Shown here: in pieces, positions 1,107 through 25,300 of the stretch | How positions within the stretch are numbered: the stretch's first letter is position 1 | How the letters are laid out: each line of letters begins with the position of its first letter | Assembly (NCBI GenBank): GCA_002189035.1 | Contig: NEEC01000123.1 | Coordinates: 1-33,669 of the forward strand | Length of the DNA: 33,669 nt | Direction of reading: 5' to 3' | Origin: Utricularia gibba | Taxonomy: Eukaryota; Streptophyta; Magnoliopsida; Lamiales; Lentibulariaceae | Translations under genes and position numbers: made by a program | The notes under the pieces: model-generated | What the model was told of the DNA's origin: nothing | Databases searched by the model: none | The model's input: only the letters and a program-made list of their open reading frames with translations

Positions 1107-1115
1107 GTGCACGTG
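1107..1115. other. Conserved GTGCACGTG motif (representative copy, M2)
   Basis: GTGCAC and CACGTG palindromes overlap. The nine bases are unchanged in nearly all units although the AT-rich tract directly upstream is the most variable part of the monomer; M40 has GTGCACGCG. CACGTG is a general E-box/G-box core, but in a satellite this is only a suggestion of a bound site. Confidence 0.5.
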
Positions 1116-1381: not shown

Positions 1382-1489
1382 ATTGATGCAAAAGATACAC
1401 GGAAAAAGAATCAAATAGCCACTAGAGACATGGTGTATGGGAATGGTGCATCAAGAATCAGAAGTATCATAGCAACTAATTGCATCAAT
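1382..1489. other. Long-loop inverted repeat ATTGATGCAA / TTGCATCAAT (representative, M3)
   Basis: ATTGATGCAA at 1382-1391 pairs with TTGCATCAAT at 1480-1489 across an 88-bp loop. A shorter alternative partner, TGCATCAA, lies at 1447-1454 within GGTGCATCAAG and is present in all regular units. The distal arm is perfect only in units with TTGCATC (M1, M3, M7, M9, M28, M38 and nearly all right-domain units); the common core form TTGAATCAAT has one mismatch. Confidence 0.5.
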
Positions 1490-4400
1490 CAACAGCCAAA
1501 ACATATGGTGTCAAACTTCATCGGATATGCGATCAAGATGGAAAAAAGTCACATGTTACATCATGAATTTCGTGGCATCACTTATCCCAACACTATTATA
1601 CACCAGGTACGCAAAAATGTTTACTTTTAACGAATCCAGTGCACGTGTGATTTTTAGGCTGCACCCCGAATGGTGATGCGCAATGAAATGACTAGGTCGC
1701 ACATCCTGGTCCACGAAGCACCTCTTCCAAAACATGCAGATCCTAACTCTTCATAGCACACCATTGGGAAGCCCGATTCGAGCTCCAAGTAGTATAATTT
1801 GGAGTTTCGTTTGTCCGATAACTGTGGACATATTAAAAAAAACCACAACGAAAAGTGTCTTACGTGTCCTTCCTTGGTGGCTGCGTTTAATATTGTGCTT
1901 CTCGTTCTCGAAATTGATGCAAACAAGATACACGGCAAAAGAATCAAATAGCCACTAGAGACATGGTGTATGGGAATGGTGCATCAAGAATCAGAAGTAT
2001 CATGGCAACTAATTGAATCAATCAACAGCCAAAACATATGGTGTCAAACTTCATCGGATATGCGATCAAGATGGAAAAAAGTCACATGTTACATCATGAA
2101 TTTCGTGGCATCACTTATCCCAACACTATTATACTCAGGTAAAAATTTTATTTTTAACGAATCCGTGCACGTGTGATTTTTAGGCTGCACCCCGAATGGT
2201 GATGCGCAATGAAATGACTAGTCGCACATCCTGGTCCACGAAGCACCTCTTCCAAAACATGCAGATCCTAACTCTTCATAGCACACCATTGGGAAGCCCA
2301 TTCGAGCTCCAAGTAGTATAATTTGGAGTTTCGTTTGTCCGATAACTGTGGACATATTAAAAACAAACCACAACGAAAAGTGTCTTACGTGTCCTTCCTT
2401 GGTGGCTGCGTTTAATATTGTGCTTCTCGTTCTCGAAATTGATGCAAAATACACGGCAAAAGAATCAAATAGCCACTAGAGACATGGTGTATGGGAATGG
2501 TGCATCAAGAATCAGAAGTATCATGCAACTAATTGAATCAATCAACAGCCAAAACATATGGTGTCAAACTTCATCGGATATGCGATCAAGATGGAAAAAA
2601 GTCACATGTTACATCATGAATTTCGTGGCATCACTTATCCCAACACTATTATACACCAGGTACGCAAAAATGTTTACTTTTAACGAATCCAGTGCACGTG
2701 TGATTTTTAGGCTGCACCCCGAATGGTGATGCGCAATGAAATGACTAGGTCGCACATCCTGGTCCACGAAGCACCTCTTCCAAAACATGCAGATCCTAAC
2801 TCTTCATAGCACACCATTGGGAAGCCCGATTCGAGCTCCAAGTAGTATAATTTGGAGTTTCGTTTGTCCGATAACTGTGGACATATTAAAAACAAACCAC
2901 AACGAAAAGTGTCTTACGTGTCCTTCCTTGGTGGCTGCGTTTAATATTGTGCTTCTCGTTCTCGAAATTGATGCAAACAAGATACACGGCAAAAGAATCA
3001 AATAGCCACTAGAGACATGGTGTATGGGAATGGTGCATCAAGAATCAGAAGTATCATGGCAACTAATTGAATCAATCAACAGCCAAAACATATGGTGTCA
3101 AACTTCATCGGATATGCGATCAAGATGGAAAAAAGTCACATGTTACATCATGAATTTCGTGGCATCACTTATCCCAACACTATTATACTCCAGGTACGCA
3201 AAAATGTTTACTTTTAACGAATCCAGTGCACGTGTGATTTTTAGGCTGCACCCCGAATGGTGATGCGCAATGAAATGACTAGGTCGCACATCCTGGTCCA
3301 CGAAGCACCTCTTCCAAAACATGCAGATCCTAACTCTTCATAGCACACCATTGGGAAGCCCGATTCGAGCTCCAAGTAGTATAATTTGGAGTTTCGTTTG
3401 TCCGATAACTGTGGACATATTAAAAACAAACCACAACGAAAAGTGTCTTACGTGTCCTTCCTTGGTGGCTGCGTTTAATATTGTGCTTCTCGTTCTCGAA
3501 ATTGATGCAAACAAGATACACGGAAAAAGAATCAAATAGCCACTAGAGACATGGTGTATGGGAATGGTGCATCAAGAATCAGAAGTATCATAGCAACTAA
3601 TTGCATCAATCAACAGCCAAAACATATGGTGTCAAACTTCATCGGATATGCGATCAAGATGGAAAAAAGTCACATGTTACATCATGAATTTCGTGGCATC
3701 ACTTATCCCAACACTATTATACACCAGGTACGCAAAAATGTTTACTTTTAACGAATCCAGTGCACGTGTGATTTTTAGGCTGCACCCCGAATGGTGATGC
3801 GCAATGAAATGACTAGGTCGCACATCCTGGTCCACGAAGCACCTCTTCCAAAACATGCAGATCCTAACTCTTCATAGCACACCATTGGGAAGCCCGATTC
3901 GAGCTCCAAGTAGTATAATTTGGAGTTTCGTTTGTCCGATAACTGTGGACATATTAAAAACAAACCACAACGAAAAGTGTCTTACGTGTCCTTCCTTGGT
4001 GGCTGCGTTTAATATTGTGCTTCTCGTTCTCGAAATTGATGCAAGATACACGGCAAAAGAATCAAATAGCCACTAGAGACATGGTGTATGGGAATGGTGC
4101 ATCAAGAATCAGAAGTATCATGCAACTAATTGAATCAATCAACAGCCAAAACATATGGTGTCAAACTTCATCGGATATGCGATCAAGATGGAAAAAAGTC
4201 ACATGTTACATCATGAATTTCGTGGCATCACTTATCCCAACACTATTATACTCCAGGTACGCAAAAATGTTTACTTTTAACGAATCCAGTGCACGTGTGA
4301 TTTTTAGGCTGCACCCCGAATGGTGATGCGCAATGAAATGACTAGGTCGCACATCCTGGTCCACGAAGCACCTCTTCCAAAACATGCAGATCCTAACTCT

Positions 4401-7400
4401 TCATAGCACACCATTGGGAAGCCCGATTCGAGCTCCAAGTAGTATAATTTGGAGTTTCGTTTGTCCGATAACTGTGGACATATTAAAAACAAACCACAAC
4501 GAAAAGTGTCTTACGTGTCCTTCCTTGGTGGCTGCGTTTAATATGTGCTTCTCGTTCTCGAAATTGATGCAAAGATACACGGCAAAAGAATCAAATAGCC
4601 ACTAGAGACATGGTGTAAGGGAATGGTGCATCAAGAATCAGAAGTATCATGCAACTAATTGCATCAATCAACAGCCAAAACATATGGTGTCAAACTTCAT
4701 CGGATATGCGATCAAGATGGAAAAAAGTCACATGTTACATCATGAATTTCGTGGCATCACTTATCCCAACACTATTATACTCAGGTACGCAAAAATGTTT
4801 ACTTTTAACGAATCCAGTGCACGTGTGATTTTTAGGCTGCACCCCGAATGGTGATGCGCAATGAAATGACTAGGTCGCACATCCTGGTCCACGAAGCACC
4901 TCTTCCAAAACATGCAGATCCTAACTCTTCATAGCACACCATTGGGAAGCCCGATTCGAGCTCCAAGTAGTATAATTTGGAGTTTCGTTTGTCCGATAAC
5001 TGTGGACATATTAAAAACAAACCACAACGAAAAGTGTCTTACGTGTCCTTCCTTGGTGGCTGCGTTTAATATTGTGCTTCTCGTTCTCGAAATTGATGCA
5101 AACAAGATACACGGAAAAGAATCAAATAGCCACTAGAGACATGGTGTATGGGAATGGTGCATCAAGAATCAGAAGTATCATGGCAACTAATTGAATCAAT
5201 CAACAGCCAAAACATATGGTGTCAAACTTCATCGGATATGCGATCAAGATGGAAAAAAGTCACATGTTACATCATGAATTTCGTGGCATCACTTATCCCA
5301 ACACTATTATACTCCAGGTACGCAAAAATGTTTACTTTTAACGAATCCAGTGCACGTGTGATTTTTAGGCTGCACCCCGAATGGTGATGCGCAATGAAAT
5401 GACTAGGTCGCACATCCTGGTCCACGAAGCACCTCTTCCAAAACATGCAGATCCTAACTCTTCATAGCACACCATTGGGAAGCCCGATTCGAGCTCCAAG
5501 TAGTATAATTTGGAGTTTCGTTTGTCCGATAACTGTGGACATATTAAAAACAAACCACAACGAAAAGTGTCTTACGTGTCCTTCCTTGGTGGCTGCGTTT
5601 AATATTGTGCTTCTCGTTCTCGAAATTGATGCAAGCAAGATACACGGAAAAGAATCAAATAGCCACTAGAGACATGGTGTATGGGAATGGTGCATCAAGA
5701 ATCAGAAGTATCATGGCAACTAATTGAATCAATCAACAGCCAAAACATATGGTGTCAAACTTCATCGGATATGCGATCAAGATGGAAAAAAGTCACATGT
5801 TACATCATGAATTTCGTGGCATCACTTATCCCAACACTATTATACTCCAGGTACGCAAAAATGTTTACTTTTAACGAATCCAGTGCACGTGTGATTTTTA
5901 GGCTGCACCCCGAATGGTGATGCGCAATGAAATGACTAGGTCGCACATCCTGGTCCACGAAGCACCTCTTCCAAAACATGCAGATCCTAACTCTTCATAG
6001 CACACCATTGGGAAGCCCGATTCGAGCTCCAAGTAGTATAATTTGGAGTTTCGTTTGTCCGATAACTGTGGACATATTAAAAACAAACCACAACGAAAAG
6101 TGTCTTACGTGTCCTTCCTTGGTGGCTGCGTTTAATATTGTGCTTCTCGTTCTCGAAATTGATGCAAACAAGATACACGGAAAAGAATCAAATAGCCACT
6201 AGAGACATGGTGTATGGGAATGGTGCATCAAGAATCAGAAGTATCATGGCAACTAATTGAATCAATCAACAGCCAAAACATATGGTGTCAAACTTCATCG
6301 GATATGCGATCAAGATGGAAAAAAGTCACATGTTACATCATGAATTTCGTGGCATCACTTATCCCAACACTATTATACTCCAGGTACGCAAAAATGTTTA
6401 CTTTTAACGAATCCAGTGCACGTGTGATTTTTAGGCTGCACCCGAATGGTGATGCGCAATGAAATGACTAGGTCGCACATCCTGGTCCACGAAGCACCTC
6501 TTCCAAAACATGCAGATCCTAACTCTTCATAGCACACCATTGGGAAGCCCGATTCGAGCTCCAAGTAGTATAATTTGGAGTTTCGTTTGTCCGATAACTG
6601 TGGACATATTAAAAACAAACCACAACGAAAAGTGTCTTACGTGTCCTTCCTTGGTGGCTGCGTTTAATATTGTGCTTCTCGTTCTCGAAATTGATGCAAC
6701 AAGATACACGGAAAAGAATCAAATAGCCACTAGAGACATGGTGTATGGGAATGGTGCATCAAGAATCAGAAGTATCATGGCAACTAATTGAATCAATCAA
6801 CAGCCAAAACATATGGTGTCAAACTTCATCGGATATGCGATCAAGATGGAAAAAAGTCACATGTTACATCATGAATTTCGTGGCATCACTTATCCCAACA
6901 CTATTATACTCAGGTACGCAAAAATGTTTACTTTTAACGAATCCAGTGCACGTGTGATTTTTAGGCTGCACCCCGAATGGTGATGCGCAATGAAATGACT
7001 AGGTCGCACATCCTGGTCCACGAAGCACCTCTTCCAAAACATGCAGATCCTAACTCTTCATAGCACACCATTGGGAAGCCCGATTCGAGCTCCAAGTAGT
7101 ATAATTTGGAGTTTCGTTTGTCCGATAACTGTGGACATATTAAAAACAAACCACAACGAAAAGTGTCTTACGTGTCCTTCCTTGGTGGCTGCGTTTAATA
7201 TGTGCTTCTCGTTCTCGAAATTGATGCAAACAAGATACACGGCAAAAGAATCAAATAGCCACTAGAGACATGGTGTATGGGAATGGTGCATCAAGAATCA
7301 GAAGTATCATGGCAACTAATTGAATCAATCAACAGCCAAAACATATGGTGTCAAACTTCATCGGATATGCGATCAAGATGGAAAAAAGTCACATGTTACA

Positions 7401-8104
7401 TCATGAATTTCGTGGCATCACTTATCCCAACACTATTATACTCCAGGTACGCAAAAATGTTTACTTTTAACGAATCCAGTGCACGTGTGATTTTTAGGCT
7501 GCACCCCGAATGGTGATGCGCAATGAAATGACTAGGTCGCACATCCTGGTCCACGAAGCACCTCTTCCAAAACATGCAGATCCTAACTCTTCATAGCACA
7601 CCATTGGGAAGCCCGATTCGAGCTCCAAGTAGTATAATTTGGAGTTTCGTTTGTCCGATAACTGTGGACATATTAAAAACAAACCACAACGAAAAGTGTC
7701 TTACGTGTCCTTCCTTGGTGGCTGCGTTTAATATTGTGCTTCTCGTTCTCGAAATTGATGCAAACAAGATACACGGAAAAGAATCAAATAGCCACTAGAG
7801 ACATGGTGTATGGGAATGGTGCATCAAGAATCAGAAGTATCATGGCAACTAATTGAATCAATCAACAGCCAAAACATATGTGTCAAACTTCATCGGATAT
7901 GCGATCAAGATGGAAAAAAGTCACATGTTACATCATGAATTTCGTGGCATCACTTATCCCAACACTATTATACCCAGGTACGCAAAAATGTTTACTTTTA
8001 ACGAATCCAGTGCACGTGTGATTTTTAGGCTGCACCCCGAATGGTGATGCGCAATGAAATGACTAGGTCGCACATCCTGGTCCACGAAGCACCTCTTCCA
8101 AAAC

Positions 8105-10229
8105 ATGCAGATCCTAACTCTTCATAGCACACCATTGGGAAGCCCGATTCGAGCTCCAAGTAGTATAATTTGGAGTTTCGTTTGTCCGATAACTGTGGAC
8201 ATATTAAAAACAAACCACAACGAAAAGTGTCTTACGTGTCCTTCCTTGGTGGCTGCGTTTAATATTGTGCTTCTCGTTCTCGAAATTGATGCAAAAGATA
8301 CACGGCAAAAGAATCAAATAGCCACTAGAGACATGGTGTATGGGAATGGTGCATCAAGAATCAGAAGTATCATGGCAACTAATTGAATCAATCAACAGCC
8401 AAAACATATGGTGTCAAACTTCATCGGATATGCGATCAAGATGGAAAAAAGTCACATGTTACATCATGAATTTCGTGGCATCACTTATCCCAACACTATT
8501 ATACTCCAGGTACGCAAAAATGTTTACTTTTAACGAATCCAGTGCACGTGTGATTTTTAGGCTGCACCCCGAATGGTGATGCGCAATGAAATGACTAGGT
8601 CGCACATCCTGGTCCACGAAGCACCTCTTCCAAAACATGCAGATCCTAACTCTTCATAGCACACCATTGGGAAGCCCGATTCGAGCTCCAAGTAGTATAA
8701 TTTGGAGTTTCGTTTGTCCGATAACTGTGGACATATTAAAAACAAACCACAACGAAAAGTGTCTTACGTGTCCTTCCTTGGTGGCTGCGTTTAATATTGT
8801 GCTTCTCGTTCTCGAAATTGATGCAAACAAGATACACGGCAAAAGAATCAAATAGCCACTAGAGACATGGTGTATGGGAATGGTGCATCAAGAATCAGAA
8901 GTATCATGGCAACTAATTGAATCAATCAACAGCCAAAACATATGGTCAAACTTCATCGGATATGCGATCAAGATGGAAAAAAGTCACATGTTACATCATG
9001 AATTTCGTGGCATCACTTATCCCAACACTATTATACTCCAGGTACGCAAAAATGTTTACTTTTAACGAATCCAGTGCACGTGTGATTTTTAGGCTGCACC
9101 CCGAATGGTGATGCGCAATGAAATGACTAGGTCGCACATCCTGGTCCACGAAGCACCTCTTCCAAAACATGCAGATCCTAACTCTTCATAGCACACCATT
9201 GGGAAGCCCGATTCGAGCTCCAAGTAGTATAATTTGGAGTTTCGTTTGTCCGATAACTGTGGACATATTAAAAACAAACCACAACGAAAAGTGTCTTACG
9301 TGTCCTTCCTTGGTGGCTGCGTTTAATATTGTGCTTCTCGTTCTCGAAATTGATGCAAACAAGATACACGGAAAAGAATCAAATAGCCACTAGAGACATG
9401 GTGTATGGGAATGGTGCATCAAGAATCAGAAGTATCATGCAACTAATTGATCAATCAACAGCCAAAACATATGGTGTCAAACTTCATCGGATATGCGATC
9501 AAGATGGAAAAAAGTCACATGTTACATCATGAATTTCGTGGCATCACTTATCCCAACACTATTATACTCCAGGTACGCAAAAATGTTTACTTTTAACGAA
9601 TCCAGTGCACGTGTGATTTTTAGGCTGCACCCCGAATGGTGATGCGCAATGAAATGACTAGGTCGCACATCCTGGTCCACGAAGCACCTCTTCCAAAACA
9701 TGCAGATCCTAACTCTTCATAGCACACCATTGGGAAGCCCGATTCGAGCTCCAAGTAGTATAATTTGGAGTTTCGTTTGTCCGATAACTGTGGACATATT
9801 AAAAACAAACCACAACGAAAAGTGTCTTACGTGTCCTTCCTTGGTGGCTGCGTTTAATATTGTGCTTCTCGTTCTCGAAATTGATGCAAAAGATACACGG
9901 CAAAAGAATCAAATAGCCACTAGAGACATGGTGTATGGGAATGGTGCATCAAGAATCAGAAGTATCATGGCAACTAATTGAATCAATCAACAGCCAAAAC
10001 ATATGGTGTCAAACTTCATCGGATATGCGATCAAGATGGAAAAAAGTCACATGTTACATCATGAATTTCGTGGCATCACTTATCCCAACACTATTTATAC
10101 TCAGGTATGCGTAAAATTTACTTTTAACAAATCCAGTGCACGTGTGATTTTTAGGCTGCACCCCGAATGGTGATGCGCAATGAAATGACTAGTCGCACAT
10201 CCTGGTCCACGAAGCACCTCTTCCAAAAC
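8105..10229. repeat. Tetramer copy 1 (M16-M19), ~2.12-kb higher-order repeat
   Basis: Four A-type units. M16: GCAAAAG, TTGAATC, TACTCC. M17: GCAAACAAG and a two-base loss in ACATATGGTCAAAC. M18: GCAAACAAG, ATGCAAC and TTGATC. M19: GCAAAAG, ending in ATTTATACTCAGGTATGCG (c at 10100), AACAAATCC and CTAGTCGC. The altered TACTCAGG tract in the fourth unit is the marker that defines the tetramer phase. Confidence 0.72.
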
Positions 10230-12354
10230 ATGCAGATCCTAACTCTTCATAGCACACCATTGGGAAGCCCGATTCGAGCTCCAAGTAGTATAATTTGGAG
10301 TTTCGTTTGTCCGATAACTGTGGACATATTAAAAACAAACCACAACGAAAAGTGTCTTACGTGTCCTTCCTTGGTGGCTGCGTTTAATATTGTGCTTCTC
10401 GTTCTCGAAATTGATGCAAACAAGATACACGGCAAAAGAATCAAATAGCCACTAGAGACATGGTGTATGGGAATGGTGCATCAAGAATCAGAAGTATCAT
10501 GCAACTAATTGATCAATCAACAGCCAAAACATATGGTGTCAAACTTCATCGGATATGCGATCAAGATGGAAAAAAGTCACATGTTACATCATGAATTTCG
10601 TGGCATCACTTATCCCAACACTATTATACTCCAGGTACGCAAAAATGTTTACTTTTAACGAATCCAGTGCACGTGTGATTTTTAGGCTGCACCCCGAATG
10701 GTGATGCGCAATGAAATGACTAGGTCGCACATCCTGGTCCACGAAGCACCTCTTCCAAAACATGCAGATCCTAACTCTTCATAGCACACCATTGGGAAGC
10801 CCGATTCGAGCTCCAAGTAGTATAATTTGGAGTTTCGTTTGTCCGATAACTGTGGACATATTAAAAACAAACCACAACGAAAAGTGTCTTACGTGTCCTT
10901 CCTTGGTGGCTGCGTTTAATATTGTGCTTCTCGTTCTCGAAATTGATGCAAACAAGATACACGGAAAAAGAATCAAATAGCCACTAGAGACATGGTGTAT
11001 GGGAATGGTGCATCAAGAATCAGAAGTATCATGGCAACTAATTGAATCAATCAACAGCCAAAACATATGGTGTCAAACTTCATCGGATATGCGATCAAGA
11101 TGGAAAAAAGTCACATGTTACATCATGAATTTCGTGGCATCACTTATCCCAACACTATTATACTCCAGGTACGCAAAAATGTTTACTTTTAACGAATCCA
11201 GTGCACGTGTGATTTTTAGGCTGCACCCCGAATGGTGATGCGCAATGAAATGACTAGGTCGCACATCCTGGTCCACGAAGCACCTCTTCCAAAACATGCA
11301 GATCCTAACTCTTCATAGCACACCATTGGGAAGCCCGATTCGAGCTCCAAGTAGTATAATTTGGAGTTTCGTTTGTCCGATAACTGTGGACATATTAAAA
11401 ACAAACCACAACGAAAAGTGTCTTACGTGTCCTTCCTTGGTGGCTGCGTTTAATATTGTGCTTCTCGTTCTCGAAATTGATGCAAGCAAGATACACGGAA
11501 AAAGAATCAAATAGCCACTAGAGACATGGTGTATGGGAATGGTGCATCAAGAATCAGAAGTATCATGGCAACTAATTGAATCAATCAACAGCCAAAACAT
11601 ATGGTGTCAAACTTCATCGGATATGCGATCAAGATGGAAAAAAGTCACATGTTACATCATGAATTTCGTGGCATCACTTATCCCAACACTATTATACTCC
11701 AGGTACGCAAAAATGTTTACTTTTAACGAATCCAGTGCACGTGTGATTTTTAGGCTGCACCCCGAATGGTGATGCGCAATGAAATGACTAGGTCGCACAT
11801 CCTGGTCCACGAAGCACCTCTTCCAAAACATGCAGATCCTAACTCTTCATAGCACACCATTGGGAAGCCCGATTCGAGCTCCAAGTAGTATAATTTGGAG
11901 TTTCGTTTGTCCGATAACTGTGGACATATTAAAAACAAACCACAACGAAAAGTGTCTTACGTGTCCTTCCTTGGTGGCTGCGTTTAATATTGTGCTTCTC
12001 GTTCTCGAAATTGATGCAAAAGATACACGGCAAAAGAATCAAATAGCCACTAGAGACATGGTGTATGGGAATGGTGCATCAAGAATCAGAAGTATCATAG
12101 CAACTAATTGAATCAATCAACAGCCAAAACATATGGTGTCAAACTTCATCGGATATGCGATCAAGATGGAAAAAAGTCACATGTTACATCATGAATTTCG
12201 TGGCATCACTTATCCCAACACTATACTCAGGTACGCAAATATTTATTTTAACGAATCCAGTGCACGTGTGATTTTTAGGCTGCACCCCGAATGGTGATGC
12301 GCAATGAAATGACTAGGTCGCACATCCTGGTCCACGAAGCACCTCTTCCAAAAC
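10230..12354. repeat. Tetramer copy 2 (M20-M23)
   Basis: M20: GCAAACAAG, ATGCAAC, TTGATC. M21: GCAAACAAG followed by CGGAAAAAG. M22: GCAAGCAAG followed by CGGAAAAAG. M23: GCAAAAG, ATAGC with TTGAATC, ending in ACTATACTCAGG (12226) and AAATATTTATTTTAACG. M21 and M22 are both 534 bp and differ essentially by A/G at the GCA-site, so they look like a recent duplication. The marker in M23 is 2126 bp after that in M19. Confidence 0.72.
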
Positions 12355-14462
12355 ATGCAGATCCTAACTCTTCATAGCACACCATTGGGAAGCCCGATTC
12401 GAGCTCCAAGTAGTATAATTTGGAGTTTCGTTTGTCCGATAACTGTGGACATATTAAAAACAAACCACAACGAAAAGTGTCTTACGTGTCCTTCCTTGGT
12501 GGCTGCGTTTAATATGTGCTTCTCGTTCTCGAAATTGATGCAAGGGATACACGGCAAAAGAATCAAATAGCCACTAGAGACATGGTGTATGGGAATGGTG
12601 CATCAAGAATCAGAAGTATCATGCAACTAATTGAATCAATCAACAGCCAAAACATATGGTGTCAAACTTCATCGGATATGCGATCAAGATGGAAAAAAGT
12701 CACATGTTACATCATGAATTTCGTGGCATCACTTATCCCAACACTATTATACACCAGGTACGCAAAAATGTTTACTTTTAACGAATCCAGTGCACGTGTG
12801 ATTTTTAGGCTGCACCCCGAATGGTGATGCGCAATGAAATGACTAGGTCGCACATCCTGGTCCACGAAGCACCTCTTCCAAAACATGCAGATCCTAACTC
12901 TTCATAGCACACCATTGGGAAGCCCGATTCGAGCTCCAAGTAGTATAATTTGGAGTTTCGTTTGTCCGATAACTGTGGACATATTAAAAACAAACCACAA
13001 CGAAAAGTGTCTTACGTGTCCTTCCTTGGTGGCTGCGTTTAATATTGTGCTTCTCGTTCTCGAAATTGATGCAAACAAGATACACGGAAAAAATCAAATA
13101 GCCACTAGAGACATGGTGTATGGGAATGGTGCATCAAGAATCAGAAGTATCATGGCAACTAATTGAATCAATCAACAGCCAAAACATATGGTGTCAAACT
13201 TCATCGGATATGCGATCAAGATGGAAAAAAGTCACATGTTACATCATGAATTTCGTGGCATCACTTATCCCAACACTATTATACTCCAGGTACGCAAAAA
13301 TGTTTACTTTTAACGAATCCAGTGCACGTGTGATTTTTAGGCTGCACCCCGAATGGTGATGCGCAATGAAATGACTAGGTCGCACATCCTGGTCCACGAA
13401 GCACCTCTTCCAAAACATGCAGATCCTAACTCTTCATAGCACACCATTGGGAAGCCCGATTCGAGCTCCAAGTAGTATAATTTGGAGTTTCGTTTGTCCG
13501 ATAACTGTGGACATATTAAAAACAAACCACAACGAAAAGTGTCTTACGTGTCCTTCCTTGGTGGCTGCGTTTAATATTGTGCTTCTCGTTCTCGAAATTG
13601 ATGCAAGCAAGATACACGGAAAAGAATCAAATAGCCACTAGAGACATGGTGTATGGGAATGGTGCATCAAGAATCAGAAGTATCATGGCAACTAATTGAA
13701 TCAATCAACAGCCAAAACATATGGTGTCAAACTTCATCGGATATGCGATCAAGATGGAAAAAAGTCACATGTTACATCATGAATTTCGTGGCATCACTTA
13801 TCCCAACACTATTATACTCCAGGTACGCAAAAATGTTTACTTTTAACGAATCCAGTGCACGTGTGATTTTTAGGCTGCACCCCGAATGGTGATGCGCAAT
13901 GAAATGACTAGGTCGCACATCCTGGTCCACGAAGCACCTCTTCCAAAACATGCAGATCCTAACTCTTCATAGCACACCATTGGGAAGCCCGATTCGAGCT
14001 CCAAGTAGTATAATTTGGAGTTTCGTTTGTCCGATAACTGTGGACATATTAAAAACAAACCACAACGAAAAGTGTCTTACGTGTCCTTCCTTGGTGGCTG
14101 CGTTTAATATGTGCTTCTCGTTCTCGAAATTGATGCAAGCAAGATACACGGAAAAAGAATCAAATAGCCACTAGAGACATGGTGTATGGGAATGGTGCAT
14201 CAAGAATCAGAAGTATCATGCAACTAATTGAATCAATCAACAGCCAAAACATATGGTGTCAAACTTCATCGGATATGCGATCAAGATGGAAAAAAGTCAC
14301 ATGTTACATCATGAATTTCGTGGCATCACTTATCCCAACACTATACTCAGGTACGTAAATATTTTTTTTAACGAATCCAGTGCACGTGTGATTTTTAGAA
14401 TGGTGATGCGCAATGAAATGACTAGTCGCACATCCTGGTCCACGAAGCACCTCTTCCAAAAC
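12355..14462. repeat. Tetramer copy 3 (M24-M27)
   Basis: M24: AATATGTG, GCAAGGG, ATGCAAC, TACACCAGG. M25: GCAAACAAG with CGGAAAAAATC. M26: GCAAGCAAG. M27: AATATGTG, GCAAGCAAG, ATGCAAC, ending in ACTATACTCAGG (14346) and a T-rich AAATATTTTTTTTAACG tract. After it, 12 bases (GGCTGCACCCCG) are missing between TTTTTA and GAATGGTG at about 14398, which with other small losses makes M27 only 513 bp. The marker in M27 is 2120 bp after that in M23. Confidence 0.72.
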
Positions 14463-16535
14463 ATGCAGATCCTAACTCTTCATAGCACACCATTGGGAAG
14501 CCATTCGAGCTCCAAGTAGTATAATTTGGAGTTTCGTTTGTCCGATAACTGTGGACATATTAAAAACAAACCACAACGAAAAGTGTCTTACGTGTCCTTC
14601 CTTGGTGGCTGCGTTTAATATGTGCTTCTCGTTCTCGAAATTGATGCAAATGATACACGGCAAAAGAATCAAATAGCCACTAGAGACATGGTGTAAGGGA
14701 ATGGTGCATCAAGAATCAGAAGTATCATAGCAACTAATTGCATCAATCAACAGCCAAAACATATGGTCAAACTTCATCGGATATGCGATCAAGATGGAAA
14801 AAAGTCACATGTTACATCATGAATTTCGTGGCATCACTTATCCCAACACTATTATACACCAGACGCAGTTTACAACGAATCCAGTGCACGTGTCTGCAAA
14901 ATGCGCAATGAAATGACTAGACATCCTAAGCTCTTCCATGCAGATCCTAACTCTTCATAGCACACCATTGGGAAGCCCGATTCGAGCTCCAAGTAGTATA
15001 ATTTGGAGTTTCGTTTGTCCGATAACTGTGGACATATTAAAAACAAACCACAACGAAAAGTGTCTTACGTGTCCTTCCTTGGTGGCTGCGTTTAATATTG
15101 TGCTTCTCGTTCTCGAAATTGATGCAAGCAAGATACACGGAAAAAGAATCAAATAGCCACTAGAGACATGGTGTATGGGAATGGTGCATCAAGAATCAGA
15201 AGTATCATGGCAACTAATTGAATCAATCAACAGCCAAAACATATGGTGTCAAACTTCATCGGATATGCGATCAAGATGGAAAAAAGTCACATGTTACATC
15301 ATGAATTTCGTGGCATCACTTATCCCAACACTATTATACTCCAGGTACGCAAAAATGTTTACTTTTAACGAATCCAGTGCACGTGTGATTTTTAGGCTGC
15401 ACCCCGAATGGTGATGCGCAATGAAATGACTAGGTCGCACATCCTGGTCCACGAAGCACCTCTTCCAAAACATGCAGATCCTAACTCTTCATAGCACACC
15501 ATTGGGAAGCCCGATTCGAGCTCCAAGTAGTATAATTTGGAGTTTCGTTTGTCCGATAACTGTGGACATATTAAAAACAAACCACAACGAAAAGTGTCTT
15601 ACGTGTCCTTCCTTGGTGGCTGCGTTTAATATTGTGCTTCTCGTTCTCGAAATTGATGCAAACAAGATACACGGAAAAGAATCAAATAGCCACTAGAGAC
15701 ATGGTGTATGGGAATGGTGCATCAAGAATCAGAAGTATCATGGCAACTAATTGAATCAATCAACAGCCAAAACATATGGTGTCAAACTTCATCGGATATG
15801 CGATCAAGATGGAAAAAAGTCACATGTTACATCATGAATTTCGTGGCATCACTTATCCCAACACTATTATACTCCAGGTACGCAAAAATGTTTACTTTTA
15901 ACGAATCCAGTGCACGTGTGATTTTTAGGCTGCACCCCGAATGGTGATGCGCAATGAAATGACTAGGTCGCACATCCTGGTCCACGAAGCACCTCTTCCA
16001 AAACATGCAGATCCTAACTCTTCATAGCACACCATTGGGAAGCCCGATTCGAGCTCCAAGTAGTATAATTTGGAGTTTCGTTTGTCCGATAACTGTGGAC
16101 ATATTAAAAACAAACCACAACGAAAAGTGTCTTACGTGTCCTTCCTTGGTGGCTGCGTTTAATATTGTGCTTCTCGTTCTCGAAATTGATGCAAAAGATA
16201 CACGGCAAAAGAATCAAATAGCCACTAGAGACATGGTGTATGGGAATGGTGCATCAAGAATCAGAAGTATCATAGCAACTAATTGAATCAATCAACAGCC
16301 AAAACATATGGTGTCAAACTTCATCGGATATGCGATCAAGATGGAAAAAAGTCACATGTTACATCATGAATTTCGTGGCATCACTTATCCCAACACTATT
16401 TATACTCAGGTACGCAAAATGTTTACTTTTAACGAATCCAGTGCACGTGTGATTTTTAGGCTGCACCCCGAATGGTGATGCGCAATGAAATGACTATGTC
16501 GCACATCCTGGTCCACGAAGCACCTCTTCCAAAAC
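14463..16535. repeat. Tetramer copy 4 (M28-M31), first unit shortened
   Basis: M28 is 475 bp and B-leaning: AATATGTG, GCAAATGAT, GTAAGGG, ATAGC, TTGCATC, TACACCAG; its right end is eroded (separate entry). M29: GCAAGCAAG with CGGAAAAAG. M30: GCAAACAAG with CGGAAAAG. M31: GCAAAAG, ATAGC, TTGAATC, ending in ATTTATACTCAGG (16405). M31 matches M23 at every marker before the tract, as expected if they occupy the same tetramer position. M30 looks identical to M10, about 10.5 kb away. Confidence 0.72.
14861..14937. repeat. Eroded segment within M28 (many small losses)
   Basis: Against other units, the stretch from TACACCAG to the next anchor has lost roughly 60 bases as many separate short gaps rather than one deletion. 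Recognisable islands in correct order are ACGCA, GTTTAC, AACGAATCC, GTGCACGTGT, CTGCA, ATGCGCAATG, AAATGACTAG, ACATCCT, AAGC and CTCTTCCATG. Such a lace-like pattern is unusual for real deletion and resembles a poor local consensus, but it could be true decay. Confidence 0.85.
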
Positions 16536-18661
16536 ATGCAGATCCTAACTCTTCATAGCACACCATTGGGAAGCCCGATTCGAGCTCCAAGTAGTATAAT
16601 TTGGAGTTTCGTTTGTCCGATAACTGTGGACATATTAAAAACAAACCACAACGAAAAGTGTCTTACGTGTCCTTCCTTGGTGGCTGCGTTTAATATTGTG
16701 CTTCTCGTTCTCGAAATTGATGCAAAAGATACACGGCAAAAGAATCAAATAGCCACTAGAGACATGGTGTAAGGGAATGGTGCATCAAGAATCAGAAGTA
16801 TCATAGCAACTAATTGATCAATCAACAGCCAAAACATATGGTGTCAAACTTCATCGGATATGCGATCAAGATGGAAAAAAGTCACATGTTACATCATGAA
16901 TTTCGTGGCATCACTTATCCCAACACTATTATACACCAGGTACGCAAAAATGTTTACTTTTAACGAATCCAGTGCACGTGTGATTTTTAGGCTGCACCCC
17001 GAATGGTGATGCGCAATGAAATGACTAGGTCGCACATCCTGGTCCACGAAGCACCTCTTCCAAAACATGCAGATCCTAACTCTTCATAGCACACCATTGG
17101 GAAGCCCGATTCGAGCTCCAAGTAGTATAATTTGGAGTTTCGTTTGTCCGATAACTGTGGACATATTAAAAACAAACCACAACGAAAAGTGTCTTACGTG
17201 TCCTTCCTTGGTGGCTGCGTTTAATATTGTGCTTCTCGTTCTCGAAATTGATGCAAACAAGATACACGGCAAAAGAATCAAATAGCCACTAGAGACATGG
17301 TGTATGGGAATGGTGCATCAAGAATCAGAAGTATCATGGCAACTAATTGAATCAATCAACAGCCAAAACATATGGTGTCAAACTTCATCGGATATGCGAT
17401 CAAGATGGAAAAAAGTCACATGTTACATCATGAATTTCGTGGCATCACTTATCCCAACACTATTATACTCCAGGTACGCAAAAATGTTTACTTTTAACGA
17501 ATCCAGTGCACGTGTGATTTTTAGGCTGCACCCCGAATGGTGATGCGCAATGAAATGACTAGGTCGCACATCCTGGTCCACGAAGCACCTCTTCCAAAAC
17601 ATGCAGATCCTAACTCTTCATAGCACACCATTGGGAAGCCCGATTCGAGCTCCAAGTAGTATAATTTGGAGTTTCGTTTGTCCGATAACTGTGGACATAT
17701 TAAAAACAAACCACAACGAAAAGTGTCTTACGTGTCCTTCCTTGGTGGCTGCGTTTAATATTGTGCTTCTCGTTCTCGAAATTGATGCAAACAAGATACA
17801 CGGCAAAAGAATCAAATAGCCACTAGAGACATGGTGTAAGGGAATGGTGCATCAAGAATCAGAAGTATCATAGCAACTAATTGAATCAATCAACAGCCAA
17901 AACATATGGTGTCAAACTTCATCGGATATGCGATCAAGATGGAAAAAAGTCACATGTTACATCATGAATTTCGTGGCATCACTTATCCCAACACTATATA
18001 CTCCAGGTACGCAAAATGTTTACTTTTAACGAATCCAGTGCACGTGTGATTTTTAGGCTGCACCCCGAATGGTGATGCGCAATGAAATGACTAGTCGCAC
18101 ATCCTGGTCCACGAAGCACCTCTTCCAAAACATGCAGATCCTAACTCTTCATAGCACACCATTGGGAAGCCCGATTCGAGCTCCAAGTAGTATAATTTGG
18201 AGTTTCGTTTGTCCGATAACTGTGGACATATTAAAAACAAACCACAACGAAAAGTGTCTTACGTGTCCTTCCTTGGTGGCTGCGTTTAATATTGTGCTTC
18301 TCGTTCTCGAAATTGATGCAACAAGATACACGGAAAAGAATCAAATAGCCACTAGAGACATGGTGTATGGGAATGGTGCATCAAGAATCAGAAGTATCAT
18401 GGCAACTAATTGAATCAATCAACAGCCAAAACATATGGTGTCAAACTTCATCGGATATGCGATCAAGATGGAAAAAAGTCACATGTTACATCATGAATTT
18501 CGTGGCATCACTTATCCCAACACTATTATACTCAGGTACGCAAAAATGTTTACTTTTAACGAATCCAGTGCACGTGTGATTTTTAGGCTGCACCCGAATG
18601 GTGATGCGCAATGAAATGACTATGTCGCACATCCTGGTCCACGAAGCACCTCTTCCAAAAC
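16536..18661. repeat. Tetramer copy 5 (M32-M35)
   Basis: M32: CTATGTCGC just before its anchor, GCAAAAG, GTAAGGG, ATAGC, TTGATC, TACACCAGG. M33: GCAAACAAG, GTATGGG, ATGGC, TTGAATC; it matches M6 at every marker and in length (534 bp). M34: GCAAACAAG, GTAAGGG, ATAGC, with a changed ACTATATACTCC tract and CTAGTCGC. M35: GCAACAAG, ATGGC, ending in TACTCAGG (18531), CACCCG and CTATGTCGC; it matches M13 at every marker. Marker spacing to copy 4 is 2126 bp. Confidence 0.7.
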
Positions 18662-20788
18662 ATGCAGATCCTAACTCTTCATAGCACACCATTGGGAAGC
18701 CCTATTCGAGCTCCAAGTAGTATAATTTGGAGTTACGTTTGTCCGATAACTGTGGACATATTAAAAACAAACCACAACGAAAAGTGTCTTACGTGTCCTT
18801 CCTTGGTGGCTGCGTTTAATATGTGCTTCTCGTTCTCGAAATTGATGCAAATGGGATACACGGCAAAAGAATCAAATAGCCACTAGAGACATGGTGTAAG
18901 GGAATGGTGCATCAAGAATCAGAAGTATCATAGCAACTAATTGATCAATCAACAGCCAAAACATATGGTGTCAAACTTCATCGGATATGCGATCAAGATG
19001 GAAAAAAGTCACATGTTACATCATGAATTTCGTGGCATCACTTATCCCAACACTATTATACTCCAGGTACGCAAAAATGTTTACTTTTAACGAATCCAGT
19101 GCACGTGTGATTTTTAGGCTGCACCCCGAATGGTGATGCGCAATGAAATGACTAGGTCGCACATCCTGGTCCACGAAGCACCTCTTCCAAAACATGCAGA
19201 TCCTAACTCTTCATAGCACACCATTGGGAAGCCCGATTCGAGCTCCAAGTAGTATAATTTGGAGTTTCGTTTGTCCGATAACTGTGGACATATTAAAAAC
19301 AAACCACAACGAAAAGTGTCTTACGTGTCCTTCCTTGGTGGCTGCGTTTAATATTGTGCTTCTCGTTCTCGAAATTGATGCAAACAAGATACACGGCAAA
19401 AGAATCAAATAGCCACTAGAGACATGGTGTAAGGGAATGGTGCATCAAGAATCAGAAGTATCATGGCAACTAATTGAATCAATCAACAGCCAAACATATG
19501 GTGTCAAACTTCATCGGATATGCGATCAAGATGGAAAAAAGTCACATGTTACATCATGAATTTCGTGGCATCACTTATCCCAACACTATTATACTCCAGG
19601 TACGCAAATGTTTATTTTTAACGAATCCAGTGCACGTGTGATTTTTAGGCTGCACCCCGAATGGTGATGCGCAATGAAATGACTATGTCGCACATCCTGG
19701 TCCACGAAGCACCTCTTCCAAAACATGCAGATCCTAACTCTTCATAGCACACCATTGGGAAGCCCGATTCGAGCTCCAAGTAGTATAATTTGGAGTTTCG
19801 TTTGTCCATAACTGTGGACATATTAAAAACAAACCACAACGAAAAGTGTCTTACGTGTCCTTCCTTGGTGGCTGCGTTTAATATTGTGCTTCTCGTTCTC
19901 GAAATTGATGCAAACAAGATACACGGCAAAAGAATCAAATAGCCACTAGAGACATGGTGTATGGGAATGGTGCATCAAGAATCAGAAGTATCATAGCAAC
20001 TAATTGCATCAATCAACAGCCAAAACATATGGTGTCAAACTTCATCGGATATGCGATCAAGATGGAAAAAAGTCACATGTTACATCATGAATTTCGTGGC
20101 ATCACTTATCCCAACACTATTATACTCCAGGTACGCAAAATGTTTACTTTTAACGAATCCAGTGCACGTGTGATTTTTAGGCTGCACCCCGAATGGTGAT
20201 GCGCAATGAAATGACTATGTCGCACATCCTGGTCCACGAAGCACCTCTTCCAAAACATGCAGATCCTAACTCTTCATAGCACACCATTGGGAAGCCCTAT
20301 TCGTGCTCCAAGTAGTATAATTTGGAGTTTCGTTTGTCCGATAACTGTGGACATATTAAAAACAAACCACAACGAAAAGTGTCTTACGTGTCCTTCCTTG
20401 GTGGCTGCGTTTAATATTGTGCTTCTCGTTCTCGAAATTGATGCAAACAAGATACACGGCAAAAGAATCAAATAGCCACTAGAGACATGGTGTATGGGAA
20501 TGGTGCATCAAGAATCAGAAGTATCATGGCAACTAATTGAATCAATCAACAGCCAAAACATATGGTGTCAAACTTCATCGGATATGCGATCAAGATGGAA
20601 AAAAGTCACATGTTACATCATGAATTTCGTGGCATCACTTATCCCAACATATATACTCCAGGTACGCAAAAATGTTTACTTTTAACGAATCCAGTGCACG
20701 TGTGATTTTTAGGCTGCACCCCGAATGGTGATGCGCAATGAAATGACTATGTCGCACATCCTGGTCCACGAAGCACCTCTTCCAAAAC
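18662..20788. repeat. Monomers M36-M39, A/B transition end of the core
   Basis: The tetramer register holds less well here. M36 is a clear mosaic: CTATTCGAGC, GTTACG (B) but GATAACTGTGG (A), then AATATGTG, GCAAATGGG, GTAAGGG, ATAGC, TTGATC. M37 is A on the left but has GTAAGGG. M38 has CATAACTGTGG, then ATAGC and TTGCATC. M39 has the B start CTATTCGTGC followed immediately by A markers TTTCG and GATAACTGTGG, and a unique AACATATATACTCC tract. All four are preceded or followed by CTATGTCGC, the right-domain form, except the M36-M37 junction (CTAGGTCGC). Confidence 0.85.
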
Positions 20789-21264
20789 ATGCAGATCCTA
20801 TACTCTATCAAGTAGCACACCATTGTGGGTGGCTGCGTTTAATATGTGCTTCTCGTTCTCGAAATTGATGCAAAAGATACACGGAAAAGAATCAATAGCC
20901 ACTAGAGACATGGTGTAAGGGAATGGTGCATCAAGAATCAGAAGTATCATGGCAGTTGAATCAATCAACACCATCAAAATGTGTACATATTATCATCAAT
21001 GCCACAACGAAGAAATGGTCTTACGAAAGTCCATGTTGGTGGCTGCGTTTGGCATCACTGCTTATCCCAACAAATTGATGCAAAAGATACACGGCAAAAG
21101 AATCAAATAGCCACTAGAGACATGGTGTAAGGGCCATGGTACGCAACTCAAGAATCACTTTTAACGAATCACAGTGCACGCGTGATCAACATAGGCTGCA
21201 CCCCGAATGGTGATGCGCAATGAAATGACTATGTCGCACATCCCACGAAGCACCTCTTCCAAAC
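20789..21264. repeat. M40: scrambled satellite unit, 476 bp
   Basis: The first ~30 bases are normal but altered (CCTATACTCTATCAAG). About 110 bases are then missing between CCATTG and GGTGGCTGCG near 20826. A normal stretch follows to ATCATGGCA (about 20954). From there the sequence jumps to the middle of the unit in degraded form (GTACATATTATCATC, CCACAACGAAG, GTCTTACG), reaches GGTGGCTGCG a second time at about 21042, inserts GGCATCACTGCTTATCCC from the unit's 3' part, and returns to AAATTGATGC. A second GCCACTAGAGACATGG follows. Then TACGCAA, CTCAAGAATCA and CTTTTAACG, normally far apart, are interleaved. All parts derive from the satellite. Confidence 0.88.
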
Positions 21265-21781
21265 ATGCAGATCCTAACTCTTCATAGCACACCATTGGGA
21301 GCCTTTCGTGCTCCAAGTAGTATAATTGGAGTTACGTTTGTCCATAACTGTGGACATATTAAAAACAAACCACAACGAAAAGTGTCTTACGTGTCCTTCC
21401 TTGGTGGCTGCGTTTAATAATGTGCTTCTCGTTCTCGAAATTGATGCAAACATACACGGCAAAAGAATCAAATAGCCACTAGAGACATGGTGTAAGGGAA
21501 TGGTGCATCAAGAATCAGAAGTATCATAGCAACTAATTGCATCAATCAACAGCCAAAACATATGGTGTCAAACTTCATCGGATATGCGATCAAGATGGAA
21601 AAAAGTCACATGTTACATCATGAATTTCGTGGCATCACTTATCCCAACACTATTATACTCAGGTATGCAAAAATTTTATTTTTAACAAATCCGGTGCACG
21701 TGTGATTTTTAGGCTGCACCCCGAATGGTGATGCGCAATGAAATGACTATGTCGCACATCCTGGTCCACGCACGTGTGAAC
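21265..21781. repeat. M41: B-type monomer with small losses
   Basis: 517 bp. Preceded by ACATCCCACG (loss of TGGTC region bases). Losses include GGGAGCCTTTCGTGC and ATAATTGG. B markers: GTTACG, CATAACTGTGG, AATAATGTG, GTAAGGG, ATAGC, TTGCATC. Its 3' tract is the divergent TACTCAGGTATGC form with AACAAATCCGG, the same form as at the extreme left edge of the window. Confidence 0.9.
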
Positions 21782-21940
21782 ATGCAGAATGGTGAACTCT
21801 TCAATGAGCAATGACTAGGTCGCACATCCTGAGCTCCACGAGCACCATCTTCCAGTTACGTTTGTCTCTAACTGTCACCACATTGGGAAGCCCGATTCGA
21901 GCTCCAAGTAGTATAATTTGGAGTTTTACGTGTCCGATAA
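21771..21940. repeat. Scrambled segment at the start of M42
   Basis: After the normal GGTCCACG, the sequence reads CACGTGTGAACATGCAG, mixing the GTGCACGTGTG and anchor motifs. A second, degraded copy of the pre-anchor segment follows (GCAATGACTAGGTCGCAC, CCACGAGCACC, CTTCCA at 21808-21856). Next come GTTACGTTTGTCTCTAACTG, a normal CCATTGGGAAGC to TTTGGAG stretch (about 21881-21923), and a jump to TTACGTGTCC and GATAAATATGTG that removes about 100 bases. All pieces are satellite-derived. Confidence 0.86.
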
Positions 21941-22312
21941 ATATGTGCTTCTCGTTCTCGAAATTGATGCAAATGGGATACACGGCAAAAGAATCAAATA
22001 GCCACTAGAGACATGGTGTATGGGAATGGTGCATCAAGAATCAGAAGTATCATGGCAACTAATTGCATCAATCAACAGCCAAAACATATGGTGTCAAACT
22101 TCATCGGATATGCGATCAAGATGGAAAAAAGTCACATGTTACATCATGAATTTCGTGGCATCACTTATCCCAACACTATTATACTCCAGGTACGCAAAAT
22201 GTTTACTTTTAACGAATCCAGTGCACGTGTGATTTTTAGGCTGCACCCCGAATGGTGATGCGCAATGAAATGACTATGTCGCACATCCTGGTCGAAGCAC
22301 CTCTTCCAAAAC
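21941..22312. repeat. M42 remainder, regular satellite sequence
   Basis: Regular unit from TGTGCTTCTCG onward: GCAAATGGG, GTATGGG, ATGGC with TTGCATC, TACTCCAGG, CTATGTCGC, and a loss of CCAC in GGTCGAAGC before the next anchor. GTATGGG with TTGCATC is a combination otherwise rare in the core. Confidence 0.9.
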
Positions 22313-25300
22313 ATGCAGATCCTAACTCTTCATAGCACACCATTGGGAAGCCCGATTCGAGCTCCAAGTAGTATAATTTGGAGTTTCGTTTGTCCGATAA
22401 CTGTGGACATATTAAAAACAAACCACAACGAAAAGTGTCTTACGTGTCCTTCCTTGGTGGCTGCGTTTAATATTGTGCTTCTCGTTCTCGAAATTGATGC
22501 AAAAGATACACGGCAAAAGAATCAAATAGCCACTAGAGACATGGTGTAAGGGAATGGTGCATCAAGAATCAGAAGTATCATGGCAACTAATTGAATCAAT
22601 CAACAGCCAAAACATATGGTGTCAAACTTCATCGGATATGCGATCAAGATGGAAAAAAGTCACATGTTACATCATGAATTTCGTGGCATCACTTATCCCA
22701 ACACTATTATACTCAGGTACGCAAAAATGTTTACTTTTAACGAATCCAGTGCACGTGTGATTTTTAGGCTGCACCCCGAATGGTGATGCGCAATGAAATG
22801 ACTATGTCGCACATCCTGGTCCACGAAGCACCTCTTCCAAAACATGCAGATCCTAACTCTTCATAGCACACCATTGGGAAGCCCTATTCGAGCTCCAAGT
22901 AGTATAATTTGGAGTTACGTTTGTCCGATAACTGTGGACATATTAAAAACAAACCACAACGAAAAGTGTCTTACGTGTCCTTCCTTGGTGGCTGCGTTTA
23001 ATAATGTGCTTCTCGTTCTCGAATTGATGCAAATGGGATACACGGCAAAAAATCAAATAGCCACTAGAGACATGGTGTAAGGGAATGGTGCATCAAGAAT
23101 CAGAAGTATCATGGCAACTAATTGCATCAATCAAGCCAAAACATATGGTGTCAAACTTCATCGGATATGCGATCAAGATGGAAAAAAGTCACATGTTACA
23201 TCATGAATTTCGTGGCATCACTTATCCCAACACTATTATACACCAGGTACGCAAAAATGTTTACTTTTAACGAATCCAGTGCACGTGTGATTTTTAGGCT
23301 GCACCCGAATGGTGATGCGCAATGAAATGACTAGGTCGCACATCCTGGTCCACGAAGCACCTCTTCCAAAACATGCAGATCCTAACTCTTCATAGCACAC
23401 CATTGGGAAGCCCGATTCGAGCTCCAAGTAGTATAATTTGGAGTTCGTTTGTCCGATAACTGTGGACATATTAAAAACAAACCACAACGAAAAGTGTCTT
23501 ACGTGTCCTTCCTTGGTGGCTGCGTTTAATATTGTGCTTCTCGTTCTCGAATTGATGCAAACAAGATACACGGCAAAAGAATCAAATAGCCACTAGAGAC
23601 ATGTTGTAAGGGAATGGTGCATCAAGAATCAGAAGTATCATAGCAACTAATTGCATCAATCAACTGCCAAAACATATGGTGTCAAACTTCATCGGATATG
23701 CGATCAAGATGGAAAAAAGTCACATGTTACATCATGAATTTCGTGGCATCACTTATCCCAACACTATTTATACTCAGGTACGCAAAAATGTTTATTTTTA
23801 ACGAATCCAGTGCACGTGTGATTTTTAGGCTGCACCCCGAATGGTGATGCGCAATGAAATGACTATGTCGCACATCCTGGTCCACGAAGCACCTCTTCCA
23901 AAACATGCAGATCCTAACTCTTCATAGCACACCATTGGGAAGCCCTATTCGTGCTCCAAGTAGTATAATTTGGAGTTACGTTTGTCCCATAACTGTGGAC
24001 ATATTAAAAACAAACCACAACGAAAAGTGTCTTACGTGTCCTTCCTTGGTGGCTGCGTTTAATATTGTGCTTCTCGTTCTCGAAATTGATGCAAATGGAT
24101 ACACGGCAAAAGAATCAAACCACTAGAGACATGTTGTAAGGGAATGGTGCATCAAGAATCAGAAGTATCATAGCAACTAATTGCATCAATCAACTGCCAA
24201 AACGTATGGTGTCAAACTTCATCGGATATGCGATCAAGATGGAAAAAAGTCACATGTTACATCATGAATTTCGTGGCATCACTTATCCCAACACTGTTGT
24301 ATACTCAGGTATGCGTAAATATTTATTTTTAACAAAATCCAGTGCACGTGTGATTTTTAGGCTGCACCCCGAATGGTGATGCGCAATGAAATGACTATGT
24401 CGCACATCCTGGTCCACGAAGCACCTCTTCCAAAACATGCAGATCCTAACTCTTCATAGCACACCATTGGGAAGCCCTATTCGTGCTCCAAGTAGTATAA
24501 TTTGGAGTTACGTTTGTCCATAACTTTGGACATATTAAAAACAAACCACAACGAAAAGTGTCTTACGTGTCCTTCCTTGGTGGCTGCGTTTAATAATGTG
24601 CTTCTCGTTCTCGAAATTGATGCAATGGGATACACGGCAAAAGAATCAAATAGCCACTAGAGACATGGTGTATGGGAATGGTGCATCAAGAATCAGAAGT
24701 ATCATAGCAACTAATTGCATCAATCAACAGCCAAAACATATGGTGTCAAACTTCATCGGATATGCGATCAAGATGGAAAAAAGTCACATGTTACATCATG
24801 AATTTCGTGGCATCACTTATCCCAACACTATTATACTCAGGTACGCAAAAATGTTTACTTTTAACGAATCCAGTGCACGTGTGATTTTTAGGCTGCACCC
24901 CGAATGGTGATGCGCAATGAAATGACTATGTCGCACATCCTGGTCCACGAAGCACCTCTTCCAAAATGCAGATCCTAACTCTTCATAGCACACCATTGGG
25001 AAGCCCGATTCGAGCTCCAAGTAGTATAATTTGGAGTTTCGTTTGTCCGATAACTGTGGACATATTAAAAACAAACCACAACGAAAAGTGTCTTACGTGT
25101 CCTTCCTTGGTGGCTGCGTTTAATATTGTGCTTCTCGTTCTCGAAATTGATGCAAAAGATACACGGCAAAAGAATCAAATAGCCACTAGAGACATGGTGT
25201 AAGGGAATGGTGCATCAAGAATCAGAAGTATCATGGCAACTAATTGCATCAATCAACAGCCAAACATATGGTGTCAAACTTCATCGGATATGCGATCAAG

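Follow-up and report, generated by a model that had tools for sequence, protein, structure and literature searches.

Here, we investigated a 33,669-nt stretch of the Utricularia gibba genome, the whole of contig NEEC01000123.1 in assembly GCA_002189035.1 (C318, positions 1–33669; hereafter the window), which consists of a head-to-tail array of a 534-bp satellite. Our analyses indicate that this is most likely a large satellite made of several subtypes in two-, three- and four-unit repeats, which the consensus of noisy long reads has blurred in the window, and whose four-unit form has left traces in the core of the array. The multi-unit organisation of the satellite is real and is clear on other contigs of the same assembly; in the window, it surfaces as a short tag altered in each fourth unit of the core, and small deletions are concentrated in the columns where subtypes disagree.

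The assembly comprises 100,091,633 bases in 516 contigs, designated here by C and a number. The anchor ATGAAATGACTAG has 64 matches in the window at no more than one mismatch, against 0.14 expected, and the 63 full units in 33.7 kb form the long head-to-tail array of near-identical units that defines a satellite. The 534-base consensus was built from these 63 units, which are numbered M1 to M63 as in the initial annotation; with M40 and M42 excluded, they depart from it by some substitutions, numerous small deletions and few insertions. Tandem Repeats Finder reported nothing in the window, where the longest period that it covers is 500.

1..33669, forward strand: head-to-tail array of the 534-bp satellite, with 64 unit starts and 63 full units (anchor matches, alignment and consensus)

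The initial annotation had proposed a four-unit higher-order repeat in the core, marked by an altered site at 7973, 10100, 12226, 14346, 16405 and 18531. These sites are real, but each coordinate is 2 bases off (the tags start at 7971, 10098, 12224, 14344, 16403 and 18529); the spacings of 2127, 2126, 2120, 2059 and 2126 bp were reproduced, and within M15–M36 the altered forms TACCCAGG and TACTCAGG occur in M15, M19, M23, M27, M31 and M35 only. For the units that follow, TACACCAGG had been claimed in M24, M28 and M32; it is exact in M24 and M32, whereas M28 reads TACACCAGA. The core and its tags are as follows.

7523..18610, forward strand: core, M15–M35, with the altered tag in each fourth unit (tag positions and unit scoring)
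7971..7978, forward strand: TACCCAGG tag in M15
10098..10105, forward strand: TACTCAGG tag in M19, with the linked H2 differences TATGCG and AACAAAT
12224..12231, forward strand: TACTCAGG tag in M23, a partial H2 blend
12750..12758, forward strand: TACACCAGG, the H3 tag, in M24
14344..14351, forward strand: TACTCAGG tag in M27, a partial H2 blend
14855..14863, forward strand: TACACCAGA in the eroded, H3-like M28, an inexact tag
16403..16410, forward strand: TACTCAGG tag in M31, a partial H2 blend
16932..16940, forward strand: TACACCAGG, the H3 tag, in M32
18529..18536, forward strand: TACTCAGG tag in M35

Six tags among 22 units would form one unbroken four-step comb by chance in 2 of 74,613 placements, a figure to be read with the end points having been picked post hoc: M13 (6907), two units to the left of M15, also carries TACTCAGG, and the window holds 18 such sites. 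The four-unit step is found outside the core as well, with TACTCAGG at 6 and 2132, 2126 bp apart. Taken as a 0/1 series, the tag has an autocorrelation at lag 4 of +1.01 in M15–M36 (z 4.6) and of +0.55 over the whole window (z 4.1), values that none of 5000 shuffles reached after correction over lags 1–10 (59 of the 63 units scored). The third units of the successive blocks, which had been described as uniform, do share their states in five of five cases (chance 0.03), but these states are simply the commonest ones, present in 12 of the 22 units of M15–M36.

The tag TACTCAGG belongs to a diverged subtype, H2, which occurs in pure form elsewhere in the assembly. In the 3′ block of the monomer, 11 edits separate the common unit (H1) from the H2 reference, which combines M46 with the window's left end; C165 has ten identical H2 3′ blocks close to one of its ends, and 781 sites in the assembly match a 41-base H2 pattern at no more than one mismatch. 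Another subtype, H3, differs from H1 in the 3′ block by one base (TACACC), and a 47-base H3 pattern matches exactly 100 times on 12 contigs. A homopolymer (CC) error as the source of TACTCAGG was ruled out because the tag is part of a subtype with many linked differences and with pure copies elsewhere. In the window, a single scored full unit has a nearly pure H2 3′ block:

23854..24385, forward strand: M46 (H2 scoring, 59 of the 63 units)

The 87-base left end of the window likewise reads H2. Partial H2 blends are found in M4, M19, M23, M27, M31, M41, M45, M49, M53, M59 and M63, and little beyond the tag is left in M9, M13, M15, M35, M43 and M47. Most tagged units of the window thus seem to be H2 blends, as would be expected if the long-read consensus had merged reads of several subtypes. 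A graded H2 score gives a weaker signal at lag 4 than the tag (family-wise p 0.02 in M15–M36 and 0.06 over the window), and M41–M63 alone carry no signal (p 0.34 and 0.89).

With b denoting an H2 blend, d a unit with the tag only, 1 H1, 3 H3 and o any other unit, the core reads d111 (M15–M18), b111 (M19–M22), b311 (M23–M26), b-o-1-1 (M27–M30, with M28 H3-like) and b-3-1-o (M31–M34). A fixed order of distinct monomer types is therefore present in the window just in part, and the order H2-H3-H1 at M23–M25 and M31–M33 is that of C195, an array described below. In all probability, the core represents a four-unit form that has been blurred.

Comparisons over all sites place the signal in the left part of the window. 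Over M1–M39, with M28 and M29 dropped, the event distance at lag 4 is 4.94, against 6.50 expected with the unit order shuffled (z −4.7), and column-based tests, restricted to units with fewer than 12 deleted columns and evaluated family-wise over lags 1–8, give lag 4 as the best (z −4.6, family-wise p 0.0002). When columns 445–491, the 3′ tag block, are left out, lag 4 persists over M1–M39 (z −3.1, p 0.007); over M2–M35, the same step takes it from z −2.9 (p 0.019) to z −1.8 (family-wise p 0.24). For M15–M36, an identity peak at lag 4 had been anticipated: lag 4 is indeed the best, but with a family-wise p of 0.12 (z −2.1, 19 of the 22 units), and the event distance with M28 and M29 dropped is 4.90 against 6.09 expected (p 0.010 for lag 4 alone). 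Lag 4 is real over the left window, where identity a block apart exceeds identity between neighbours; within M15–M36 alone this excess is weak, and lag 4 is largely carried by the tag block. Column-based tests of M36–M63 yielded no significant lag (p 0.07 to 0.34).

The multi-unit order is more evident in other arrays of the assembly, where whole-unit edit distances were compared by lag on nine contigs or contig parts. A 10-kb stretch of C97 (17 units) differs by 2.4 edits at lag 2 and 54.6 at lag 1, and is a two-unit repeat of a 535/536-base class and a 523-base class. The latter is ~87.5% identical to the window consensus, and one of its 43-mers recurs in 1056 exact copies across the assembly; on C79 and C80, both classes are spaced near 1058 bp across long runs. 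On C320 (18 units, 10 kb), lag 3 is the best, with 10.8 edits against 17.0–18.5 at lags 1, 2 and 4. Lag 4 is the best on C195 (57 units, the whole contig; z −4.8), where 11 of 53 pairs at lag 4 differ by no more than 10 edits, compared to 2 of 56 at lag 1, 3 of 55 at lag 2 and 4 of 54 at lag 3. The subtype order of C195 is H3-H1-H2(-H2), and its tags hold a stretch 3122 312 3122 3122, flanked on both sides by less regular ones. Identity a block apart thus clearly exceeds that between neighbours on C97, C320 and C195, and on C195 distinct monomer types follow a fixed order. One-unit runs exist too, of H2 at about 535 bp (C83 and part of C126) and of the short class at about 530 bp (C100 and C147), and H2-blend and H3 tags alternate in places on C171, non-significantly (0.08–0.10). 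In C185:20000–29999, a period of 1566 (three units; consensus 1575, 95% matches) receives a higher Tandem Repeats Finder score than one of 524 (consensus 529, 90%).

Four is therefore not the sole step of this satellite: multi-unit order and the core comb stand, while other contigs are organised in two units or one, and the right end of the window may be three-unit. In the right part, the following pattern is found:

25970..33401, forward strand: M50–M63, with a class-1 signature mostly in each third unit (M52, M55, M58 and M61; also M62)

Class-3-like units are among the remaining units of this part. Over M50–M63, lag 6 is the best and lag 3 the second, the family-wise p for the best lag being 0.03 with deletions counted and 0.075 with substitutions only; the same scheme applied to M43–M63 and M36–M63 gave family-wise p values of 0.07–0.11. 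A uniform tetramer across the whole window finds no support in the tag order or the lag tests. The window may instead join a four-unit-like region to what is, more tentatively, a three-unit-like one, across the garbled M40–M42. Two pairs of irregular units deserve mention here.

14413..15420, forward strand: eroded units M28 and M29, of 495 and 513 bp (alignment)
20738..21219, forward strand: garbled unit M40, with monomer pieces at several offsets (offset comparison)
21738..22264, forward strand: garbled unit M42, with monomer pieces displaced by 0, −68, −64 and +6 (offset comparison)

We read M40 as a consensus built on reads that were out of register with one another, and M40 and M42 together (20738–21219 and 21738–22264) are likely a misjoin or a mixed-register consensus. 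A 178-bp ancestral third within the monomer was considered and rejected, as offset 178 does not rank among the top eight circular offsets, where offset 7 comes first (0.31, against a mean of 0.26). The 534-bp consensus contains no inverted repeats with exact arms of 9–19 bases less than 60 bases apart, and no known RNA families were detected at gathering scores in 7400–9200.

The small deletions of the window bear on how its array may have been blurred. Deletions total 181 bases, a mean of 3.2 per unit, in 57 of the 58 window units (of 63) that could be aligned over their whole length. Of these bases, 105 fall in columns with substitutional variation (74 of 534, with homopolymer runs taken whole; odds ratio 8.8), and 132 fall in the 63 of 534 columns in which the C195 subtypes differ (odds ratio 20.9). 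The latter set of columns was defined solely from the first 29 units of C195, and 132 was out of reach for all 533 circular shifts of the mask, which gave 21 on average and 105 at most. Four other contigs (132 units) give a deletion odds ratio of 7.0, and the deletion pattern alone has lag 4 as its best lag over the window (z −3.4). As a control, 34 of 35 units of C80 and C97 were compared to their own class, the classes being split by length: the 17 long units have 0–6 deletions (median 1, mean 1.5, six with none), and the 17 short ones 0–11 (median 0, mean 1.2, 11 with none). In early PacBio consensus software, bases are weighed against half coverage. Where a consensus is drawn from reads of several subtypes, loss of bases is to be expected at the positions on which the subtypes disagree; under a toy rule by which a base survives only when present in over half of the reads, 12–24% of diagnostic sites are dropped at mixtures of 0.4–0.6, 6% at 0.7 and none elsewhere. 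For U. gibba, a PacBio/HGAP assembly is given in PMC5793159.

Several observations weigh against blending of a multi-unit satellite as the full account. Merging is our best reading of the assembled sequence, and the control is not clean, as deletions occur in 11 of its 17 long and six of its 17 short units and its classes were picked by length. In the H2-homogeneous end of C165, moreover, the last 12 units have a mean of 2.75 deletions, with only one unit free of them, which merging alone leaves unexplained. The fourth unit of the core is H1, whereas that of C195 is a second H2; outside the 3′ block, the core units look class 1, the tagged ones included (M27–M29 are unclassified), and the all-site lag-4 test in M15–M36 alone is just nominally significant. 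Nor are the other arrays uniform: the C80 stretch as a whole has no significant period (family-wise p 0.40), C195 has a signal at lag 7 as well (z −3.9) and consists of mixed three- and four-unit runs rather than a uniform tetramer, C171 has its best lag at 8 (family-wise p 0.009), C165 has its best lag at 1 and C157 strong signals at both lags 1 and 2, these two arrays being gradients, and C185 (16 units, 10 kb) is non-significant (0.11).

Some of these features would be accommodated if the comb were itself a product of assembly, with reads from multi-unit arrays recruited into a one-unit H1 array and the unit order of C318 unreal. The class-1 character of core units outside the 3′ block, the lack of a significant lag in M2–M35 without that block and the garbled stretches, which suggest misjoins, would all fit; yet lag 4 persists outside the block over M1–M39, and the twofold occurrence of the C195 order, H2-H3-H1, speaks against an unreal unit order, so that we consider this rather unlikely. 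An unlikely explanation, too, is a true four-unit repeat of H1-like units, in which mutation and gene conversion would account for the small deletions and the mosaics, and no blending took place. Tags do recur at the four-unit step, the deletion pattern alone is best at lag 4 and the homogeneous end of C165 has some deletions too, but mutation has no evident reason to remove single bases at subtype sites with such preference, M40 and M42 combine pieces of more than one register, and pure subtypes exist in other arrays of the assembly. Finally, a comb produced by chance among few variable sites or by homopolymer basecalling error, with no higher-order structure behind it, is highly improbable: variable sites are few and lag 4 is not family-wise significant in M15–M36 alone, but no shuffle equalled the tag comb, the differences that define H2 are many and linked and its pure copies occur elsewhere, and other arrays have multi-unit periods.

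If a multi-subtype satellite has indeed been blurred by consensus making, its history could be pictured as follows. The satellite would be built from subtypes H1, H3 and H2 together with the 523-bp short class, which on the real chromosome would stand in two-, three- and four-unit blocks, propagated through recombination in registers shifted by one complete block. Consensus merging would then have pulled most C318 units toward H1, with disputed bases dropped in the process, and incomplete H2 and H3 tags would be what the core retains of the four-unit order. In satellites in general, unequal exchange or circle-mediated amplification copies multi-unit blocks, and equal positions in successive blocks grow alike; the better resolved arrays show the high block-apart identity that exchange predicts. 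Unequal exchange in multi-unit steps, as put forward in the initial annotation, is thus plausible, and the multi-unit organisation behind it is real on C195 and C97. The blended window is insufficient by itself to demonstrate exchange: since its units look like consensus blends, it probably understates the divergence of the subtypes, and the order and number of units in C318 may have been distorted by assembly.

The satellite has at least 2301 copies in the assembly (1206 plus 1095 matches to a 45-base anchor with at most two mismatches), which, at about 531 bp each, amount to ~1.2 Mb. Of 15 satellite contigs whose length was determined, 14 are 17.5–71 kb long, and C507 has 642.5 kb. On C507, all four stretches read between 1 and 44,977 (1–2000, 20,000–22,000, 34,000–41,000 and 43,000–44,977) contain satellite; the far end of the contig is telomere-like, and about 598 kb separate it from the one array edge read. 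Past that edge (C507:44978–46177), no further match to the initial 923 bases came up among the 40 of 385 candidates that were scored; a dispersed element of about 260 bases follows, with 73–78% identity at 39 further places in the same set. Reading frames of C507 at 50–60 and 100–110 kb match Arm repeats and an ABC transporter, with one SecA match below the cut-off. A search of the assembly for 5.8S rRNA gave no hit above its cut-off among the 39 of 2610 candidates scored. C1, C2 and C507 are 8,500,000, 6,192,500 and 642,500 bases long, all multiples of 500, which we take to be perhaps a trace of 500-base polishing windows. A subtelomeric position is not supported: in the first 6 kb of C1, C2 and C3, telomere repeats give way to DNA without satellite hits at all three ends read. 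At these contig starts, TTTAGGG is mixed with TTTTAGGG and TTCAGGG variants, in agreement with U. gibba telomeres as described in PMC6982007.

A broader proposal, which we advance tentatively, is that U. gibba has at least one satellite, of more than 1 Mb in all and with two-, three- and four-unit repeats, which would make up a centromere or a large heterochromatic block and would have escaped notice as short blurred contigs, and that deletions at disputed columns could generally serve to recover buried multi-unit order from older long-read assemblies. The CENP-B box, a motif that is not universal in plants, has no match in the consensus on either strand at up to two substitutions. Satellite repeats are said to be absent from the putative centromeric regions of U. 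gibba in PMC8333044. Because 14 of these 15 satellite contigs are short, that remark may reflect what reached the assembled chromosomes, and the array described here qualifies it. That one satellite takes two-, three- and four-unit forms side by side, and does so in a plant with a very small genome, could make it possible to trace how blocks originate and are replaced. There is also a practical warning, as older long-read assemblies can merge satellite subtypes, and small deletions at subtype sites may expose such merging.

The window looks like a higher-order repeat structure of a known kind in an apparently blurred assembly, and in the open-licence literature, as far as its accessible parts go, we found no prior description of the 534-bp satellite. 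With alpha satellite, the type case of a higher-order repeat, it shares diverged monomers in fixed order that are repeated as a block, and, on the C97 stretch and parts of C195, an identity between blocks far above that between neighbours; unlike alpha satellite, it has short blocks (two to four units), several block types in one assembly and no CENP-B-like box found. Gn7c161, a 161-bp (peri)centromere-associated repeat of Genlisea nigrocaulis (PMC4542322), is likewise an abundant tandem repeat of a tiny genome in the same family; the monomer lengths differ, and the likeness is one of description rather than of compared sequences. In VicTR-A, a Vicia satellite with dimer and tetramer circles (PMC2543021), the monomer is 69 bp and circular DNA was measured, whereas ours is 534 bp and known from assembled sequence; what the two have in common is a four-unit period emerging over a one-unit array.

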